23,598 bases of DNA from a virus: positions 1 through 23,598 of IMG/VR virus record IMGVR_UViG_3300025809_000126. One strand, given 5' to 3'. The notes under the pieces are model-generated. The model was given only the letters and a program-made list of their open reading frames with translations. It made no database searches and was not told the DNA's origin. This document shows, one piece after another, positions 3,729 through 11,182 of this stretch (its first letter is position 1; each line of letters begins with the position of its first letter). The position numbers were made by a program, and so were the translations under genes.

Positions 3729-4178
3729 TCAGGTTGCCGCAGTACCGGCGTCAATTGTGGCCGTAGCCATAACCGCGCCTTTGTCCTTGCGAGCATGAAC
3801 GGCTACAACGGCGTTTGTGCCGGTTGTGCCGGTTGCCACGATCCGCACATAACGCTTGCCGCCAACGTAGCCAATAGAACCTACCAGCGTATCGTCGGCG
3901 TCGTCGCTTGTGACAGTCAGCGCGCTTTCAAGTCCAACCAGATCAGCGTCCACAACTGCCGTTGCATCAGCCGCCGCAGTTGTATCGCTTTCCTGAACCT
4001 CAAAAGCAAAGCCAGATGCAGTTCCAGCATCTGTAACCGTACCAGTGGAGACTGTGAATGTCAGGGCCTCCCAGCCTTGCATATCAATCCAATCGCCCGC
4101 CGATGGCGTAACGCCCGACAGTGTAGCGGATAAGCCTAAGCCAAATTCCGCGTTGTTTCGCATATCAAACTGAGCCAT
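3729..4178 (-). CDS. Putative capsid decoration protein
   Basis: 149 aa, starting at 4178 in a TAATG overlap with the capsid gene stop and preceded by AAAGGTGG. Ala/Thr/Gly/Val-rich and beta-prone: 'WIDMQGWEALTFTVSTGTVTD' followed by 'FAFEVQESDTTAAADATAVVDADLVG' and 'GYVGGKRYVRIVATGTTGTNAVV'. The pattern of a 'VQESD' strand followed by a 'GYVG.KRYVR' strand is common in a phage family encoded next to HK97-type capsids and usually annotated as hypothetical or decoration-like. Direct coupling to the capsid gene suggests near-stoichiometric production, consistent with decoration. The function is inferred from position and composition. Confidence 0.6.
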   Translation of the reverse strand: MAQFDMRNNAEFGLGLSATLSGVTPSAGDWIDMQGWEALTFTVSTGTVTDAGTASGFAFEVQESDTTAAADATAVVDADLVGLESALTVTSDDADDTLVGSIGYVGGKRYVRIVATGTTGTNAVVAVHARKDKGAVMATATIDAGTAAT

Positions 4179-5404
4179 TATGCTGCCACCTTTCCGATAA
4201 CTGCCGCGTCAAAGGACGTAACATCGCCGCCAACGCGCTGGGTTGTGTAGTAGGTCACGAAGCCTTTGTTGGTGAATGGGTCACGCAACACTTGCAATCC
4301 AACGCGATCCACGACCGTGTAGAAGGACGCAAAGTCAGCGTAGACAATGCTCAGAGCGTTTGCCGCAACTGCTGGCATATCGTCCATGAACACAACTGAC
4401 TTGCCCAAAAGCTGGATTGTCGCCTGACCGTCACGCAAAAGAACCGGGCTGAAGAAGTAATTGTCATTGCCCTTCAACTTGAGCGCCGCGCCAAAAGTGG
4501 TGCGTTTCATACCCCAGATTGCGCCTGCCTGATAATCTTCTTTAAGTGCGTTCTGCACCTCGATCAGACCATCTGCATTCATCGCCGCCGCAGACCCCAT
4601 GTTCACTTGATGCAGTGCGTTGCGTTCATAGGTTCCACCGGTCGATTGTGCCGCGTATGTCAGGAACCCACGCGGCTTGCCAACGCCATCGCCAGAGACG
4701 AATGCGGTGTTTTGCGTGCGTGAAAACTTGTCTGCGACCTTGCGGGAAAGCCATGCCTCAACGTCAAGATAGCTGTCCTCAATCATTTCGGTGGTCATGC
4801 GAGGGTCGGATTCGATCTTGTGCGCGGTGATAACCTTCTGAGCAAGCTGAGGCGTGTCAGTCTGGCCACTGGATGCACCTTCACCAACCCAGCGAGCGGT
4901 GGCTTCCTGATCGTCGATCAGAATGTCGATGCTTTTTGCGCCAGTGCGCTCCACGTTGGCAACTTGGCGAACGGGAGACGTTTCAAATACGCGGTCAATT
5001 ACCATAGTTGAAAGCTCTGGGCGAACCAGATAACCGCCATCTGGGTTCACGTCTGTTGACATGCCCTTGATCTCGATGCCCTCGGAACCGGCTTTGAAGC
5101 CTTCCGGCAAAGTGCCGTTTGACATGTATTGCTTAAACGCATCTCGGTGCTTTTGCTCAAGATCAGCGTCCATGCCTTTGCTTTCGCCGCCGTTTGGTCG
5201 GTTCATCGCGGCTTCAAGTTTGGCTTGCTTGGTGTTCAAGGCTTCCACGTTTTTCGTGATTTCCTCAACCATGCGGTTGTGCTTTTCTTCTGTGATGACG
5301 TCCTTTGGCGCGGATGCTTTCAAGGCGTCCACTTCGGAACGAAGTTCAACAAGGGTCGGGTTGATTTTTTCAACAAGCCCTTTGATTTCTGTCAGGTCGG
5401 TCAT
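4178..5404 (-). CDS. Major capsid protein (HK97 fold)
   Basis: 408 aa. The first roughly 75 residues are a charged heptad-rich segment (VEELRSEVDALK-like) typical of the HK97 delta domain, which serves as internal scaffold and is removed by the prohead protease. The rest has HK97 capsid landmarks: 'GGYLVRPELSTMVIDRVFETSPVRQVANV', the E-loop region 'RWVGEGASSGQTDTP', the spine-helix segment with 'DSYLDVEAWLSRKVADKFSRTQNTAFVSGDGVGKPRGFL', and a C-terminal P-domain ending 'VTYYTTQRVGGDVTSFDAAVIGKVAA'. The start lies immediately after the protease stop with GGAGG eight bases upstream. A promoter-like dyad precedes the protease-capsid pair. Confidence 0.95.
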   Translation of the reverse strand: MTDLTEIKGLVEKINPTLVELRSEVDALKASAPKDVITEEKHNRMVEEITKNVEALNTKQAKLEAAMNRPNGGESKGMDADLEQKHRDAFKQYMSNGTLPEGFKAGSEGIEIKGMSTDVNPDGGYLVRPELSTMVIDRVFETSPVRQVANVERTGAKSIDILIDDQEATARWVGEGASSGQTDTPQLAQKVITAHKIESDPRMTTEMIEDSYLDVEAWLSRKVADKFSRTQNTAFVSGDGVGKPRGFLTYAAQSTGGTYERNALHQVNMGSAAAMNADGLIEVQNALKEDYQAGAIWGMKRTTFGAALKLKGNDNYFFSPVLLRDGQATIQLLGKSVVFMDDMPAVAANALSIVYADFASFYTVVDRVGLQVLRDPFTNKGFVTYYTTQRVGGDVTSFDAAVIGKVAA

Positions 5405-6112
5405 TTAATGAGCCTCCATATTTGACAAGGTTTCAGTCAAAAGTGCTTTGAGTTCGTCAACGTCTCGCTGAACATTCTCGGGATCGGTCGCGTTGTCTGC
5501 GTCTCGCAGAACATCAGACCGTGCCTTCCATGCGCCACCCGCCATAGCTTTCGCCATGCGGTTTGAGTGGCCCATATCCTTAAACGCGCGCTCGATGTGG
5601 CGCTGCGTAATATCCTCGGCTTTCATCGCGTAGATGCCAGCCATTTCGTTCATAGGGAATGTGACAATGCTGGTTTCCCAGAGGTCCAGCTTGGTAAGCC
5701 TACGAATGTCTTTTTCGGTGTCCATCTCGTACTCTTGAGTGCGATATCCGATGCTGAGACCTTCGATGCCGCCCATCTCGACCAAGTCGGCGATTTCGCC
5801 CGCTTTACCGCGTCGGCTTACTCGGCCCTTGATAAATAGGCCGTTTTCATCTTCACCCATTTCATCCCAAGCGCCGATTGGCTGAGATGGATCGTGGTTC
5901 CAAAGCATTTTAGGTTTGCGACCGCTGGCAATGCACGCCTTGAATGCGCCGGGCATGACAACATCATTGCCTTTGTCAATGTTGCCAAAGACAGAGCCAT
6001 AGCCAGAAATTGTGAGGTAATCGTCGTTTTTGCCCTCAACTTTAAGTTCAAGGGTCGCCATCTTTATTTCAAGCGGTTCGCCGCCATCTTTGCGTGCGAT
6101 GAATTGCAGCAT
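5405..6112 (-). CDS. Prohead protease (HK97 family, peptidase U35)
   Basis: 235 aa. The family core starts at about residue 22 with 'LELKVEG...YLTISGYGSVFGNIDKGNDVVMPGAF'. The catalytic His is in 'LWNHDPSQPIG' (H73) and the catalytic Ser in 'IEGLSIGY' (S120), with the expected 'LWETSIVTFPMN' block after them. This serine protease cleaves the capsid delta domain and itself during head maturation. The C-terminal 50 residues are charged, helical and probably self-removed. The ATG at 6112 is used here; Met18 would also leave the whole catalytic core intact, so the exact start is uncertain. The stop abuts the capsid gene start. Confidence 0.93.
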   Translation of the reverse strand: MLQFIARKDGGEPLEIKMATLELKVEGKNDDYLTISGYGSVFGNIDKGNDVVMPGAFKACIASGRKPKMLWNHDPSQPIGAWDEMGEDENGLFIKGRVSRRGKAGEIADLVEMGGIEGLSIGYRTQEYEMDTEKDIRRLTKLDLWETSIVTFPMNEMAGIYAMKAEDITQRHIERAFKDMGHSNRMAKAMAGGAWKARSDVLRDADNATDPENVQRDVDELKALLTETLSNMEAH

Positions 6113-6152
6113 TTAATGATCCATCTATGGGCCTCGGGCGTCTCACGACGGC

Positions 6153-6192
6153 CTTTGCAGATTGTATAACACGTATTTGCTAACTTGCAAAG
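6153..6192 (-). promoter_or_regulatory. Leftward promoter-like dyad before the protease-capsid operon (copy 2)
   Basis: Minus strand: TTGCAA (6190-6185) as -35, an 18-base spacer, and TACAAT (6166-6161) as -10, five of six consensus bases. It is bounded by the inverted repeat CTTTGCA (6192-6186) and TGCAAAG (6159-6153). It lies just after the cassette terminator at 6208-6232, so the capsid operon needs its own start. It shares CTTTGCAAGTT, CAAA, CGTG, ATACAA and TGCAAAG in order with the element at 1022-1060. Confidence 0.7.
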
Positions 6193-6207
6193 AGTTGGGA
6201 TTAGCAC

Positions 6208-6232
6208 AAAAAAAGACCGCCCGAAGGCGGCC
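6208..6232 (-). terminator. Rho-independent terminator ending the two-gene cassette
   Basis: Minus-strand RNA: a 7-bp stem GGCCGCC/GGCGGUC with one G-U pair, closed by a C(UUCG)G tetraloop and followed at once by seven U (6214-6208). This is a textbook intrinsic terminator. It would stop leftward transcription about 27 bases after the 50-aa gene and before the capsid promoter. Confidence 0.92.
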
Positions 6233-6258
6233 TAGTAGGGGAGGTAATCAAGATGCTC

Positions 6259-6411
6259 TTACGGTTTAATGTGTTTTCGAAGAACACTCAAGACAAAAAG
6301 GCTTTCAGAGATTGCAACGTTTGTTTCGGCTTCAAACTCTGCTATAGCGACCTTCAACGCGGCCTCCTCATCGGCGTTTAAAGCGATGCGGATATATTTA
6401 CGCTTGGTCAT
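6259..6411 (-). CDS. Ribbon-helix-helix-like small DNA-binding protein (50 aa)
   Basis: The ATG at 6411 shares an ATGA overlap with the stop of the 138-aa gene, and the frame ends at TAA 6259-6261. The protein begins MTKRKYIRIALNADEEAALK and ends LSVLRKHIKP. It looks like a minimal ribbon-helix-helix (Arc/MetJ/CopG-like) protein: a short basic N-terminal strand (KYIRIAL), an acidic helix (NADEEAALKVAIAEFEAE), a turn around TNVA, and a second helix (ISESLFVLSVLRKHI). Such proteins are dimeric repressors, often autoregulating their operon or acting as antitoxins or anti-CRISPR-associated regulators. The gene sits second in a two-gene cassette closed by a strong terminator. The fold is inferred by eye. 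Confidence 0.72.
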   Translation of the reverse strand: MTKRKYIRIALNADEEAALKVAIAEFEAETNVAISESLFVLSVLRKHIKP

Positions 6412-6824
6412 TTCAATTCCTCCATCGGAATTATCAACATATCGTCATGAATGATGCATCGGCCAAGAGAAACTTCACCCTGCGTTACGTCGATTTCCGC
6501 CATCTTGGCAACGCCCCATGATTTATTGGTGCCGCGATATTCTTTGATGCGCGGGCTTGAAAGCGTGTAGCCGCTCCCATCATTTACGCGCCTCACCACC
6601 ATAACACCTTTTCCAGACATATCCGCAAATCCAAATGCAACCTTGTCACCCAACAGAAGGCCGCATTTCTTCATGACATCTACGCCAAGCCTAATGGTCG
6701 TTTGGGATTGGTCCTTTCCCTCTTTGGTTCTGTGTCTTGTGTTTGAAATTCGCACCCCAGAAGCGGTTTGCCCCGATGAACAGCCGTTTCGAGTGGGCTT
6801 GACCCATTGAATATTCAGTTTCAT
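6408..6824 (-). CDS. Unknown cassette protein with AbrB-like segment (138 aa)
   Basis: Starts at 6824 (MKLNIQWVKPTRNG) with GAGG five bases upstream; a longer in-frame start exists but has no such site. Not recognised as a known family. Residues about 40-80 (TTIRLGVDVMKKCGLLLGDKV, then GKGVMVVRRV) resemble the swapped-hairpin beta pattern of AbrB/SpoVT or MraZ-like DNA-binding or antitoxin domains. The N-terminal 35 residues are polar and basic, and the C-terminus is a mixed strand region ending IIPMEELK. It is coupled by ATGA to the 50-aa gene. The cassette lies between the head morphogenesis and protease genes, bracketed by terminators, so it is probably a moron rather than a structural gene. 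Confidence 0.75.
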   Translation of the reverse strand: MKLNIQWVKPTRNGCSSGQTASGVRISNTRHRTKEGKDQSQTTIRLGVDVMKKCGLLLGDKVAFGFADMSGKGVMVVRRVNDGSGYTLSSPRIKEYRGTNKSWGVAKMAEIDVTQGEVSLGRCIIHDDMLIIPMEELK

Positions 6825-6880
6825 AACATCCTCATGTGTTTGAGTTTCATAGCATCTCACAGCTACGCAACCACAATACA

Positions 6881-6916
6881 AAACCCGCGCTAGGTGTCAA
6901 TATTTGGCGCGGGTTT
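6881..6916. terminator. Bidirectional rho-independent terminator after the packaging/portal genes
   Basis: A perfect 10-bp inverted repeat AAACCCGCGC (6881-6890) / GCGCGGGTTT (6907-6916) with a 16-base loop. The plus strand continues TTATTTTGTTG and the minus strand continues TGTATTG, so both directions have a U-rich tail. For leftward transcripts it ends the terminase-portal-gp7 operon 46 bases after its last stop and precedes the moron cassette. Confidence 0.85.
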
Positions 6917-6962
6917 TTATTTTGTTGCGTGTGTTTGTCTTTTGTTGCCTTTCGGCGTCCGG

Positions 6963-7772
6963 TCAAAAACCTTTAACGCGGTGGATTACCGAGCATCGGC
7001 AATTGATAGTCGCCGCGCCCGGCAATCCAGCCTGCCCCGGATACATGATCGCCAGATCATCGCCACCGGACCACGGCATTGCAAACGGCTCGTCCATTTC
7101 GCGCTGCTGTCCGCTCATCGTTACATGGTTGTATTCTGCATCATCGCCAAAGCTGCGCGTTCGGGCGTCCTCAACAGATACCCATTCCTTGACCAAATCA
7201 AGGCCCGTTGTCTTGGCGGTCTCGTGCATGGCGTAGTTAGCCGCGCCGTGCGTCTCGGTCCTCGCAATCAACGCGCCACGGGTGCGGCTGATCTTCGGCA
7301 CGGCTTTGTTAATCCGCTTGGCGATAACATCAACGCCTAATCCTTCGTCCTGCCCCGCTGCCACCTGTCGCACGATCCGCTCTCGCGTGGTCTCGGTGAC
7401 GCTGGTGATGCGCCGCCGTATCGCCTCAAGGTTTACCCATTGAGTTGCCAGCGATAAAAACAGGTCCGTAAAGCTGATTTTGGTTTCCAGTATCAGGCCC
7501 GCCGCCTTGCCCTGCGATACAATCCGCGACCCAAATGCCCGTGCGGTGGATTGCCCGATTTCCAGATACACGTCTTTGAACGCGCGAAAGTCGTCATCGG
7601 TTGGCGCTGGCACATAGCCTAGTTCTTGGTACTTGGCGACAAGCTGCTCGCTTTCGTTTCGGATAACCTTTGCCAGCTTGCGGCGAAAATTGGCCTCTGC
7701 CACGTCCAGCAATCGACGCTGTATTGCCGCCTCTCGCTCTGGACTGTGGCGAATGAATGCGGGTTTAGCCAT
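6963..7772 (-). CDS. Head morphogenesis protein (SPP1 gp7 / Mu gpF-like minor head protein)
   Basis: 269 aa. The N-terminal two thirds are helical and charged. The C-terminal region carries the diagnostic minor-head motif: 'RGALIARTETHGAANYAMHETA', then 'KEWVSVEDARTRSFGDDAEYNHVTMSGQ', then 'YPGQAGLPGAATINCRCSV'. The 'G.PAATINCRC' ending is characteristic of the SPP1 gp7/phage Mu F family. These proteins bind the portal and are packaged in few copies, assisting head assembly or DNA ejection. The gene overlaps the portal gene end by 8 bases, the usual neighbour. It is the last gene before a strong terminator. Confidence 0.93.
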   Translation of the reverse strand: MAKPAFIRHSPEREAAIQRRLLDVAEANFRRKLAKVIRNESEQLVAKYQELGYVPAPTDDDFRAFKDVYLEIGQSTARAFGSRIVSQGKAAGLILETKISFTDLFLSLATQWVNLEAIRRRITSVTETTRERIVRQVAAGQDEGLGVDVIAKRINKAVPKISRTRGALIARTETHGAANYAMHETAKTTGLDLVKEWVSVEDARTRSFGDDAEYNHVTMSGQQREMDEPFAMPWSGGDDLAIMYPGQAGLPGAATINCRCSVIHRVKGF

Positions 7773-9000: not shown

Positions 9001-10379
9001 TAGAGCACTCCGAAAACTTGATCCGACCCGTGGCAAATATCCATTACTGCATCCATCATCGGGTCAAGCGTGTCATCATGCGCCCCTCTAGGGAACGCAC
9101 TGGCCTCGGCCAGCATGTCGGAAAGATACGCTAAATCTCGCAACAAGACAACGTTCCCACTCTCGATTATCGGAGCGGCGTCATAAGCCCGCGTTATTTT
9201 GTCAGTGTTTCTTTGGATTGGTGTGATCGGGATACCCTCGCGCCTGAGCGTTTGGATCAGCCCTGTGCCGCTTACCTTGTCCTCAACCTTGAATGCTCGC
9301 AACGTCCCCATGCCCGTCGTCGTTGCGTGCTTTCGCCAAAAGGCCCGCGACATTTCCAACAGTTCCGGCGCTTCCCACTTGCCCCGAACCATGTCTAAAA
9401 GAACCGCTTGCCCATCTTGTGATTTCCCCCAGCACTGAAGAACCGAAAAATCGTTTTCTTGCTTCGTCTTTTGCGCCGTGTCGGCATAGATAGATCGCCA
9501 CTCTATGCGCGGCGCAACAGATAGATACTTCCACCACTCGTCCTTGAAGATGCCTCCGCCTATCGGCGCTGGACGCTGCATGTATTGGCCTGCAAAAACA
9601 TAACTGTTCGACCGCTCTAGCCTGTCCAACATTTCTGGTGGAAACTGGTCCGCCCAAAAACTGGACCCATCCACATTTCGGGCGGGAATGTTTAGGTGGT
9701 CCCAGTGCTCTCCATTGCCGCCAGACAGCAACCATCCTGCCAAGTCCATTTCGTGCAGGCGCTGCATAATAATAATAATCGGCGTGTCTGGTCTGTTTTT
9801 TCGGCTTTCCATTGTTGTTGAAAACCAGTCCAATACATTCTGCCGCATGTTTTCGCTATTACCTTCGCCAGCCTTGTGCGGATCGTCAATCAGTATGCAG
9901 CCGCCAAAGTGATCGCGCATCTTGCCAGCGCCGTATCCCGTGATCGTGCCGTCTGACCCCGTGGCGTAAACAATGCCGCCTTCATCGGTGCGAAATTCGT
10001 CTTTTGCGTTACTGTCGCCGCGAAAGCGCGGTTTGCCAAACACATCAGCAAAAGCTTCGTGCTGCATAATTGCACGCGCCTCCCATGTGTTGGTCGTCGC
10101 AAGTCGCTTGCTGTAGCTGGCGTGAATAAACTCGCTGTCTGGAAAATTTCCCATGCACCATGCAAGAAAGTTCTTTACGGCAAGTTCTGTTTTTCCAGAG
10201 CGCGGCGGGATGTTGATAATCAGGCGATTTGTTTTGCCTATCACGACGCGCTCTAGCGCGTTGCAGACAGCCTCGTGATGTGGCGCAACCTTAAACTCAG
10301 CAGACTTGCGTGCCGCAAACATATACCGCGTAAAGGCCAGCAAGTCCGTTCTGAGGTCGGCAACCTGACTTGGTGTCAT
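9000..10379 (-). CDS. Terminase large subunit
   Basis: 459 aa. The N-terminal ATPase has Walker A PPRSGKTE (residues 58-65), Walker B CILIDDPHK with acidic residues D165/D166, and the coupling segment IIIIMQRLHEMDLAG (201-215). The C-terminal RNase H-like nuclease has the first acid in 'SIYADTAQK' (D300) and the last in 'GAHDDTLDPMMDAV' (D435/D436). The 'FPRGAHDDTLD' ending is typical of this terminase family. It cuts and pumps DNA into proheads. The ATG overlaps the stop of the homing endonuclease gene (ATGA), so its translation is now coupled to an apparent invader gene. All catalytic motifs are intact. Confidence 0.97.
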   Translation of the reverse strand: MTPSQVADLRTDLLAFTRYMFAARKSAEFKVAPHHEAVCNALERVVIGKTNRLIINIPPRSGKTELAVKNFLAWCMGNFPDSEFIHASYSKRLATTNTWEARAIMQHEAFADVFGKPRFRGDSNAKDEFRTDEGGIVYATGSDGTITGYGAGKMRDHFGGCILIDDPHKAGEGNSENMRQNVLDWFSTTMESRKNRPDTPIIIIMQRLHEMDLAGWLLSGGNGEHWDHLNIPARNVDGSSFWADQFPPEMLDRLERSNSYVFAGQYMQRPAPIGGGIFKDEWWKYLSVAPRIEWRSIYADTAQKTKQENDFSVLQCWGKSQDGQAVLLDMVRGKWEAPELLEMSRAFWRKHATTTGMGTLRAFKVEDKVSGTGLIQTLRREGIPITPIQRNTDKITRAYDAAPIIESGNVVLLRDLAYLSDMLAEASAFPRGAHDDTLDPMMDAVMDICHGSDQVFGVL

Positions 10380-11182
10380 GTAATAATTCCGCCCCGCTTG
10401 CGTGCATCTTCGCCATCAATCCAATCCCAATCGTGACCACAACTTGACTTGTATTTGCCATTGCAAGCCATTGCGATGTTGTTTGGCGCGGCTTTGGGCC
10501 ACCCGTTTTCCCTCATATAATTTGCCGCTGCCCTAGTGCTAGAAAAAATCAATCCGTCATCACGGCGTGGAAACCTGTCGGCTGTGCTCAAGTGCTTCTT
10601 TAATTTTGCCTCTCTCCACTTGTCCTTGTATCCCGGTTCGGCCCAAGTTTTTGACGCAGCCTTGCTCGCTGTCTTTCGATATTCTTCCGTTTTCTTTGCG
10701 GCCAATATTCCGGCTTTTGCGTTTGGGTGCATTGCCATACCAACTTTTGACTGAGAAATCTTGCGACGGACATCTGGCGTCATAGATGCAATTATGCCAA
10801 AACGGTGCTTGAGCTTAACATCTGGGTCCGCATGTGCATTTTTGATGCTGGTGCGTTGCGCTGCCTTGGCTTCATCAGACAGCACAACGCACCCCTCACC
10901 ACCGCACGTCATGTTGTAACCCGCAGGCGACATAGTTTGGATGTCGGAAATTAGCTTAACTTCAAAGTCTAAGGCTTTCTCGCGGCTGCAAAATGACGCA
11001 ACTTTTTCAACCAAAAATGATTTTGAGCCGTATTTTCTAATGGCCTTGTGAAAAACTAAATTCGACCCGCGCCTAGCGTCCCTTTGGTGCGAGCGCCATC
11101 GGGCATCAACATCCTGAGACGTAAAGCCAACGTAAGACTTGCCGGTTTTTTCGCATGTAATTTTGTAACAATGATAATCCAT
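10376..11182 (-). CDS. GIY-YIG homing endonuclease inserted between terS and terL
   Basis: 268 aa. The GIY-YIG domain covers residues 1-97: YKI (6-8) and YVG (17-19) replace the GIY...YIG pair, with Arg28 in 'DARWRSH', catalytic Glu74 in 'DFEVKLI' and 'GYNMTCGGEG' at the end, as in group I intron and free-standing phage enzymes. Residues about 100-200 are basic repeated helices of the NUMOD3 type ('S.EAKAAQRTSI', 'TPDVRRKISQSKVGMA', 'EYRKTASKAASKTW'). The C-terminus ('IFSSTRAAANYM...NNIAMACNGKYKSS') resembles a NUMOD1-like recognition module. It probably cleaves uninvaded terminase loci and spreads by repair. Cys at the Gly position of 'GIY' is divergent, but the key residues are present. Confidence 0.92.
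   Translation of the reverse strand: MDYHCYKITCEKTGKSYVGFTSQDVDARWRSHQRDARRGSNLVFHKAIRKYGSKSFLVEKVASFCSREKALDFEVKLISDIQTMSPAGYNMTCGGEGCVVLSDEAKAAQRTSIKNAHADPDVKLKHRFGIIASMTPDVRRKISQSKVGMAMHPNAKAGILAAKKTEEYRKTASKAASKTWAEPGYKDKWREAKLKKHLSTADRFPRRDDGLIFSSTRAAANYMRENGWPKAAPNNIAMACNGKYKSSCGHDWDWIDGEDARKRGGIIT

Follow-up and report, generated by a model that had tools for sequence, protein, structure and literature searches.

A moron-type cassette with a presumed downstream autoregulator in the MuF-protease slot of an uncultured bacterial virus

The window analysed here is an IMG/VR virus record of 23,598 bases from an uncultured bacterial virus. Its minus strand carries, in this order, the genes for terminase, portal, a MuF-like minor head protein, a 138-aa protein, a 50-aa protein (p50), the prohead protease and the major capsid protein (Table 1). 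The two small genes are coupled through an ATGA overlap and lie where the initial annotation had placed them. Together with their flanking signals they form a cassette (6208-6917) between the MuF and protease genes. Profile matches identify the upstream neighbour, previously called gp7-like, as a MuF protein and the downstream neighbour as a protease of the Peptidase_S78 family. The GC content of the cassette is 47.4%, compared with 52.5% and 55.6% in the neighbouring regions; since 37 of the window's 922 stretches have values as low, low GC was dropped as a sign of foreign origin.

Table 1. Features of the cassette and its borders in the window.
Feature	Position	Strand	Evidence
MuF-like minor head protein, left border of the slot	6963..7772	-	PF04233, E 3.1e-10
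Dyad around the cassette -35 box, candidate operator and/or read-through terminator	6880..6917	-	folding, covariation, pattern scan
Predicted sigma-70-type cassette promoter TTGACA-16-TATTGT	6873..6900	-	10/12 to consensus
Short second leader dyad, TAGC-N8-GCTA; possible operator or 5'UTR hairpin	6850..6865	-	
138-aa gene, presumed effector	6408..6824	-	ORF; mostly beta model; L048 homologue
p50 (50 aa), presumed autoregulator	6259..6411	-	ORF; ATGA overlap with the 138-aa gene
UUCG intrinsic terminator, end of the cassette	6214..6233	-	8 pairs and T-run
Promoter and leader of the protease/capsid operon	6113..6195	-	TTTGCAA elements, covarying hairpin at about 6135-6153
Prohead protease (Peptidase_S78), right border of the slot	5405..6112	-	PF04586, E 1.7e-32
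Major capsid protein	4178-5404	-	

Related loci (L numbers) were gathered with MuF and protease as baits, and the gaps between head genes were measured from gene ends estimated by tblastn. Loci on a contig already represented by another locus (L001, L017-L019, L038, L047 and L049-L052) were dropped before the gaps were counted; the window and L002 were both kept. The MuF-protease gap ranges from 42 to 2715 nt in 27 rows. In contrast, 29 of 31 rows have a protease-capsid gap between -8 and 1 nt, the distant L014 and L015 having 94-106 nt, and the portal-MuF gap is -38 to 3 nt in 28 of 30 rows. The two larger portal-MuF gaps, in L024 (286 nt) and L031 (1575 nt), are either further inserts or assembly errors. 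Thus, length variability is found mainly at the MuF-protease junction, and this junction is a cargo slot.

The content of the slot differs from locus to locus. In L007, L008, L011, L012 and L013 the junction is 74-86 nt long and holds little besides the protease promoter. L040 carries an HNH endonuclease-like gene and two genes of unknown function, both of which also follow MuF in L021, and L036 carries an opposite-strand ORF with relatives located elsewhere in L029 and L034. L023, L026 and L043 have a terminator of the cassette's kind and no cassette. In the distant L014 (4867-5919) and L015 (4863-5924), MuF is followed by an ORF of roughly 350 aa that contains, by eye, a metallopeptidase-like motif (HEYGHVVHL); its product is a possible delivered effector. 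Reverse-strand sequence in the slot of L031 and L033 resembles, also by eye, a tRNA with a long variable arm. ARAGORN called no tRNA there, and a tandem tRNA reading is not claimed.

Comparison of the junction among relatives, proposed with the initial annotation, showed that the cassette is variable, and universal conservation of the gene pair did not appear: most relatives lack it. L003 encodes MuF, protease and capsid proteins 98-100% identical to those of the window, with DNA identity of 94-98% on both sides of the cassette, and is missing the segment corresponding to window 6327-6956 (630 nt). It also has one extra base, and the last 22 codons of p50 remain together with the terminator. 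The window protein shares this C-terminal part of p50 with its counterparts in the distant phages L024 and L048, and the L003 junction is therefore best explained by a deletion rather than by an empty ancestral site. In L004 the end of another protein is joined to the last part of p50, with homology to the window from 6292, and in L005 the end of yet another protein is joined to the terminator alone (6245). Outside the slot, the terminase of L003 and L022 is only 58% identical to that of the window by tblastn, compared with 98% for the portal, and a 268-aa ORF that looks like a homing endonuclease by eye adjoins the terminase gene of the window (10376-11182, minus strand).

In L024, whose MuF and protease are 68.8% and 74.1% identical to those of the window at the amino acid level, the leader and terminator of the cassette are kept, as is a homologue of p50, around a different first gene. 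The 138-aa gene is replaced by an unrelated 271-aa gene, the product of which matches DUF6551 (PF20188) at 33.2 bits, above the curated cut-off of 26.8, as well as PHROG 1033, "ParB-like partition protein". Both first genes end in GGAATTGAAATGA, which places the limits of the exchange at about the start codon and at the start of p50. One gene has thus been exchanged between a constant leader, p50 and terminator. Relatives of the 271-aa protein in L045 (38% identity) and L046 (34%) adjoin exonuclease/SSB-like and RecT-like genes, labelled by eye, in what seem to be recombination/replication clusters. A search for the 50-aa protein beside other genes, which the initial annotation had suggested, found its homologue next to an unrelated partner.

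A more distant copy lies in L048, where portal, MuF and protease are only 32-41% identical to the window (tblastn). L048 nevertheless has a full cassette at the same junction, with the TTGACA-loop dyad, the second dyad, a 145-aa homologue of the 138-aa protein, a p50 homologue and a UUCG terminator. The cassette is dispensable among close relatives and recurrent at one junction in distant ones.

At the downstream end, the UUCG terminator consists of eight pairs and a T-run and folds at -14.8 kcal/mol; 0 of 200 shuffles fold as well. L003, L004, L005 and L024 have retained it, and L023 has a related form. The promoter-like leader of the protease gene is conserved in 19 of 19 aligned relatives, which supports the earlier proposal that the capsid operon restarts from its own promoter. 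Within the protease 5'UTR, a hairpin GGCCGTC-GTGA-GACGNCC (window about 6135-6153, minus strand) recurs at the corresponding position of 18 relatives. It has six pairs, of which three have changed on both sides with pairing kept, and none is broken in any of the 19 loci. No Rfam family matches this hairpin near its gathering score, and Rfam matches anywhere in the window fall far below their gathering scores. The leader itself (CTTTGCAA...CGTGTTATA...TTTGCAAAG-like, in a palindromic frame) is repeated at 1022-1061 on the minus strand as CTTTGCAAGTTTCCAAAATCGTGATACAAGTTTGCAAAG, ahead of the gene at 601-1002; the hairpin is missing from this second copy. The two leaders possibly define a late-gene regulon with one regulator.

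The upstream end of the cassette is formed by the dyad AAAACCCGCGC-N16-GCGCGGGTTTT, about 56-93 nt ahead of the ATG of the 138-aa gene. The hairpin folds at -17.7 kcal/mol (z -4.5) and its loop includes the TTGACA -35 box, with the -10-like TATTGT just past the dyad on the gene-direction strand. This segment (6881-6916) had been described as a bidirectional terminator. The hairpin is real, but its reading as a bidirectional terminator was the weakest part of that description, as the terminator scanner made a call on the plus strand only. Given this call, the promoter-like box in the loop and the lack of a proper T-run in the upper hairpin of L048, we rejected a simple bidirectional terminator. 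A dyad enclosing the -35 box of the predicted cassette promoter describes the hairpin better.

Conservation of the leader is concentrated in these elements. The TTGACA box is identical in the window, L024 and L048, and the dyad arms, AGCTGTG and GCTAT are kept as well. Three pairs of the dyad have changed on both sides among these three sequences, a covariation of ordinary statistical weight since 25 of 500 shuffles score as high. A search with the gapped dyad and TTGACA matched 9 of 54 loci, all of them from the four records with an intact p50. The leaders of the window and L024 are identical at 81 of 99 nt, above the nucleotide identity of the L024 MuF (65.9%) and protease (74.6%) genes. The L048 leader shares 63 of 97 nt (64.9%) with the window, compared with 50% for MuF and protease; the best of 30 shuffles reaches 63.6%, and this identity taken alone is thus weak.

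The 138-aa protein showed no functional homology in Pfam, PHROGs, NCBIfam, PADLOC or the PDB, and a sequence search of the PDB gave nothing credible. Its relative in L048 is 38% identical (E 4e-30). Neither window protein, nor the p50 relatives of L024 and L048, nor the 145-aa relative matched any of 50,697 isolated-phage records, and the window DNA likewise had no match among isolated phages. Plasmids gave no match for the L048 homologue, and two scans of bacterial genomes were also negative. A model built from a two-sequence alignment (pLDDT 67) consists mostly of strands. The initial annotation had pointed to an AbrB-like segment, for which we found no Pfam or other AbrB/MazE profile match; by our reading of the model, the strand-helix-strand-strand order at residues 38-79 is compatible with an AbrB-like half and goes no further. 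In fold searches the best PDB match had an E-value of 0.26, with none at E <= 0.001, and VIA-align gave Z of at most 2.3; AbrB folds are absent from these search results, an absence that excludes nothing. The sole BFVD match below E 0.001 is A0A6J5L3G4, an uncharacterised phage protein of 208 aa (E 7e-4, TMq 0.66).

The second protein, p50, is 56% identical over 50 aa to its homologue in L024 and 54% identical to that in L048, and the latter two share 50% over 48 residues. Counting the window and L002, which are 99.99% identical, as one, an intact p50 is present in only three distinct lineages. All three homologues have an invariant RKYIRIAL near the N terminus. Pfam gave no helix-turn-helix (HTH) family at E <= 10 for any of them, and no ribbon-helix-helix profile matched. 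The monomer model (pLDDT 81.5), based on three sequences, folds as a helical hairpin with helices at residues 3-30 and 36-48, and the ribbon-helix-helix-like assignment made earlier was not confirmed. RKYIRIAL could nevertheless fit a strand, possibly one formed only in a dimer. In VIA-align the best Z was 3.9, to a histone-fold protein, in a comparison with three chains; a ribbon-helix-helix protein is absent from these chains, and this absence excludes nothing. Most likely p50 binds DNA as a small repressor of its own cassette, through one or both leader dyads.

Our interpretation starts from what is observed at the junction, namely the slot, the presence or absence of the cassette, the deletion scars, the one-gene exchange and the conserved leader. 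Presence and absence in close relatives, the scars, the other cargo and the cassette's own predicted promoter and terminator agree with the moron architecture proposed earlier, and we find good support for reading the locus as a moron with a presumed autoregulator gene downstream. We consider it probable that the locus is a moron-type cassette in a fixed MuF-protease slot, in which an exchangeable effector is combined with a constant p50 autorepressor, with counter-defence as the best guess for its purpose. RNA polymerase would start at the dyad-embedded promoter, and the effector and then p50 would be made by overlapping translation, with the overlapping start linking p50 output to that of the effector. 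By binding one or both leader dyads, p50 would then shut the cassette promoter, as Aca proteins do on acr operons. The cassette terminator and the protease's own promoter would keep the capsid operon independent of the cassette, and this arrangement may be why the junction tolerates cargo. The product of the first gene, of the 138-aa type here and a ParB/DUF6551 protein in L024, most likely targets the host early in infection; by analogy with the acr loci discussed below, our first guess for its role is counter-defence.

Several other explanations need to be weighed against this one. In a true anti-CRISPR/Aca pair, the 138-aa protein would block a host Cas complex and p50 would be a new Aca without an HTH. 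The slot matches those of Pseudomonas phages JBD30 and D3112, a small presumed regulator lies downstream, the core promoter contains a dyad, and the effector is swapped while the regulator stays. However, all 12 Aca families used by AcaFinder contain an HTH according to the available text of PMC9765179, and the partner swapped in by L024 is a 271-aa relative of ParB-CTPases and not a typical Acr. We regard this specific version as unlikely. Similar odds attach to a small regulatory module in which an AbrB-like factor and p50 tune phage transcription. The strand order in the 138-aa model and the DNA-binding appearance of p50 are compatible with such a module; the missing AbrB/MazE profile and PDB fold matches speak against it, as do the near-identical phage L003, which does without the cassette, and the ParB-like protein found in its place in L024.

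A toxin-antitoxin or exclusion module with p50 as the antitoxin was initially held to be equally possible. Two small overlapping genes, a possible DNA-binding autorepressor and presence or absence in relatives would all suit it. However, p50 accompanies two unrelated upstream genes, the 138-aa type in the window and L048 and DUF6551 in L024, which is hardly expected of a neutralising antitoxin and makes this explanation less likely; additionally, no toxin family match was found, and the small gene is the downstream one. We now consider such a module distinctly improbable. The position among head genes might instead suggest an accessory virion or head-assembly protein, and small accessory capsid genes do occur near the protease, as noted in the available part of PMC4378225. 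Yet the cassette has a separate promoter and terminator, is missing from most relatives and has a ParB-like replacement in L024. A match of the 138-aa protein to a virion component, or to any structural family, did not appear, and a virion role seems very unlikely.

Thus, we favour the exchangeable effector with a constant p50 autorepressor. A bolder proposal, which we offer only tentatively, is that p50 founds a new class of Aca-like autorepressors without an HTH. It would mark a site at which an uncultured phage group exchanges counter-defence genes, the first two examples being a ParB-CTPase and a new effector family of mostly beta structure. If this is true, p50 and the leader dyad could be used to find further such cargo. 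An autorepressor of this kind would be a marker for anti-defence genes by association that lies beyond HTH-based Aca searches, and the 138-aa and DUF6551 proteins would be the first two candidates.

Among titles and abstract openings, in a literature set that mostly leaves out subscription papers, no published description of the 138-aa/p50 pair was found. The closest likeness is to the Pseudomonas Mu-like phages. The annotated order in JBD30 is minor head protein (F), Neck1 (G), AcrF1, a winged-HTH protein, head maturation protease and major head protein, and AcrF2 is at the same place in D3112. As in the acrF1-aca1 locus of JBD30 and the acrF2 locus of D3112, accessory cargo in the window lies between a Mu-F-type head gene and the maturation protease gene, with the major head protein gene next in line; as in JBD30, a small downstream gene presumably encodes a regulator and the leader contains inverted repeats. 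In JBD30 and D3112, unlike the window, F and acr are separated by the G/Neck1 gene; the annotation gives the JBD30 regulator as a winged-HTH protein, which is not the case for p50; and no sequence relation was found between the window cassette and these acr loci. The shared slot makes the window cassette a good candidate for disarming bacterial defences. It also means that a place holding anti-CRISPR genes in one phage group serves swappable cargo in another, uncultured one, with a companion protein of a different kind.

The initial annotation had called the pair anti-CRISPR/Aca-like, and here layout and protein family part ways. The available text of PMC9410906 describes Aca proteins as binding inverted repeats that lie inside the core promoter and no more than 150 bp from where acr begins; the window dyad is an inverted repeat in the predicted core promoter, less than 150 bp from the first gene. 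The small downstream gene, whose regulatory role we infer, is also kept with different upstream genes, as in acr-aca loci. By contrast, p50 lacks the HTH common to the families of PMC9765179. The cassette is therefore acr-aca-like in predicted layout, with p50 outside the known Aca families, and it is not a new kind of system.

Similarly, the moron as defined in the available part of PMC4378225, a coding unit flanked by promoter and terminator and inserted between two genes adjacent in related phages, agrees with the window cassette in its insertion site and in its own predicted promoter and terminator, both kept in L024 and L048. Unlike that moron, the cassette has two genes, deviates only mildly in composition and exchanges one gene within a constant frame. 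According to the available text of PMC12704722, phage ParB-fold proteins with DUF6551 bind CTP or ATP, and an anti-defence role is suggested, perhaps, for phage fusions of ParB with other domains. The gene in the effector position of L024 belongs to this ParB-CTPase fold/DUF6551 family; the window cassette has no such protein. Finally, the anti-defence genes of archaeal viruses, as far as PMC11065993 is available, likewise have a conserved promoter region, with an inverted repeat in some viruses, ahead of unrelated small genes. There the arrangement covers many genes per virus, whereas the bacterial virus described here has one slot with interchangeable cargo.
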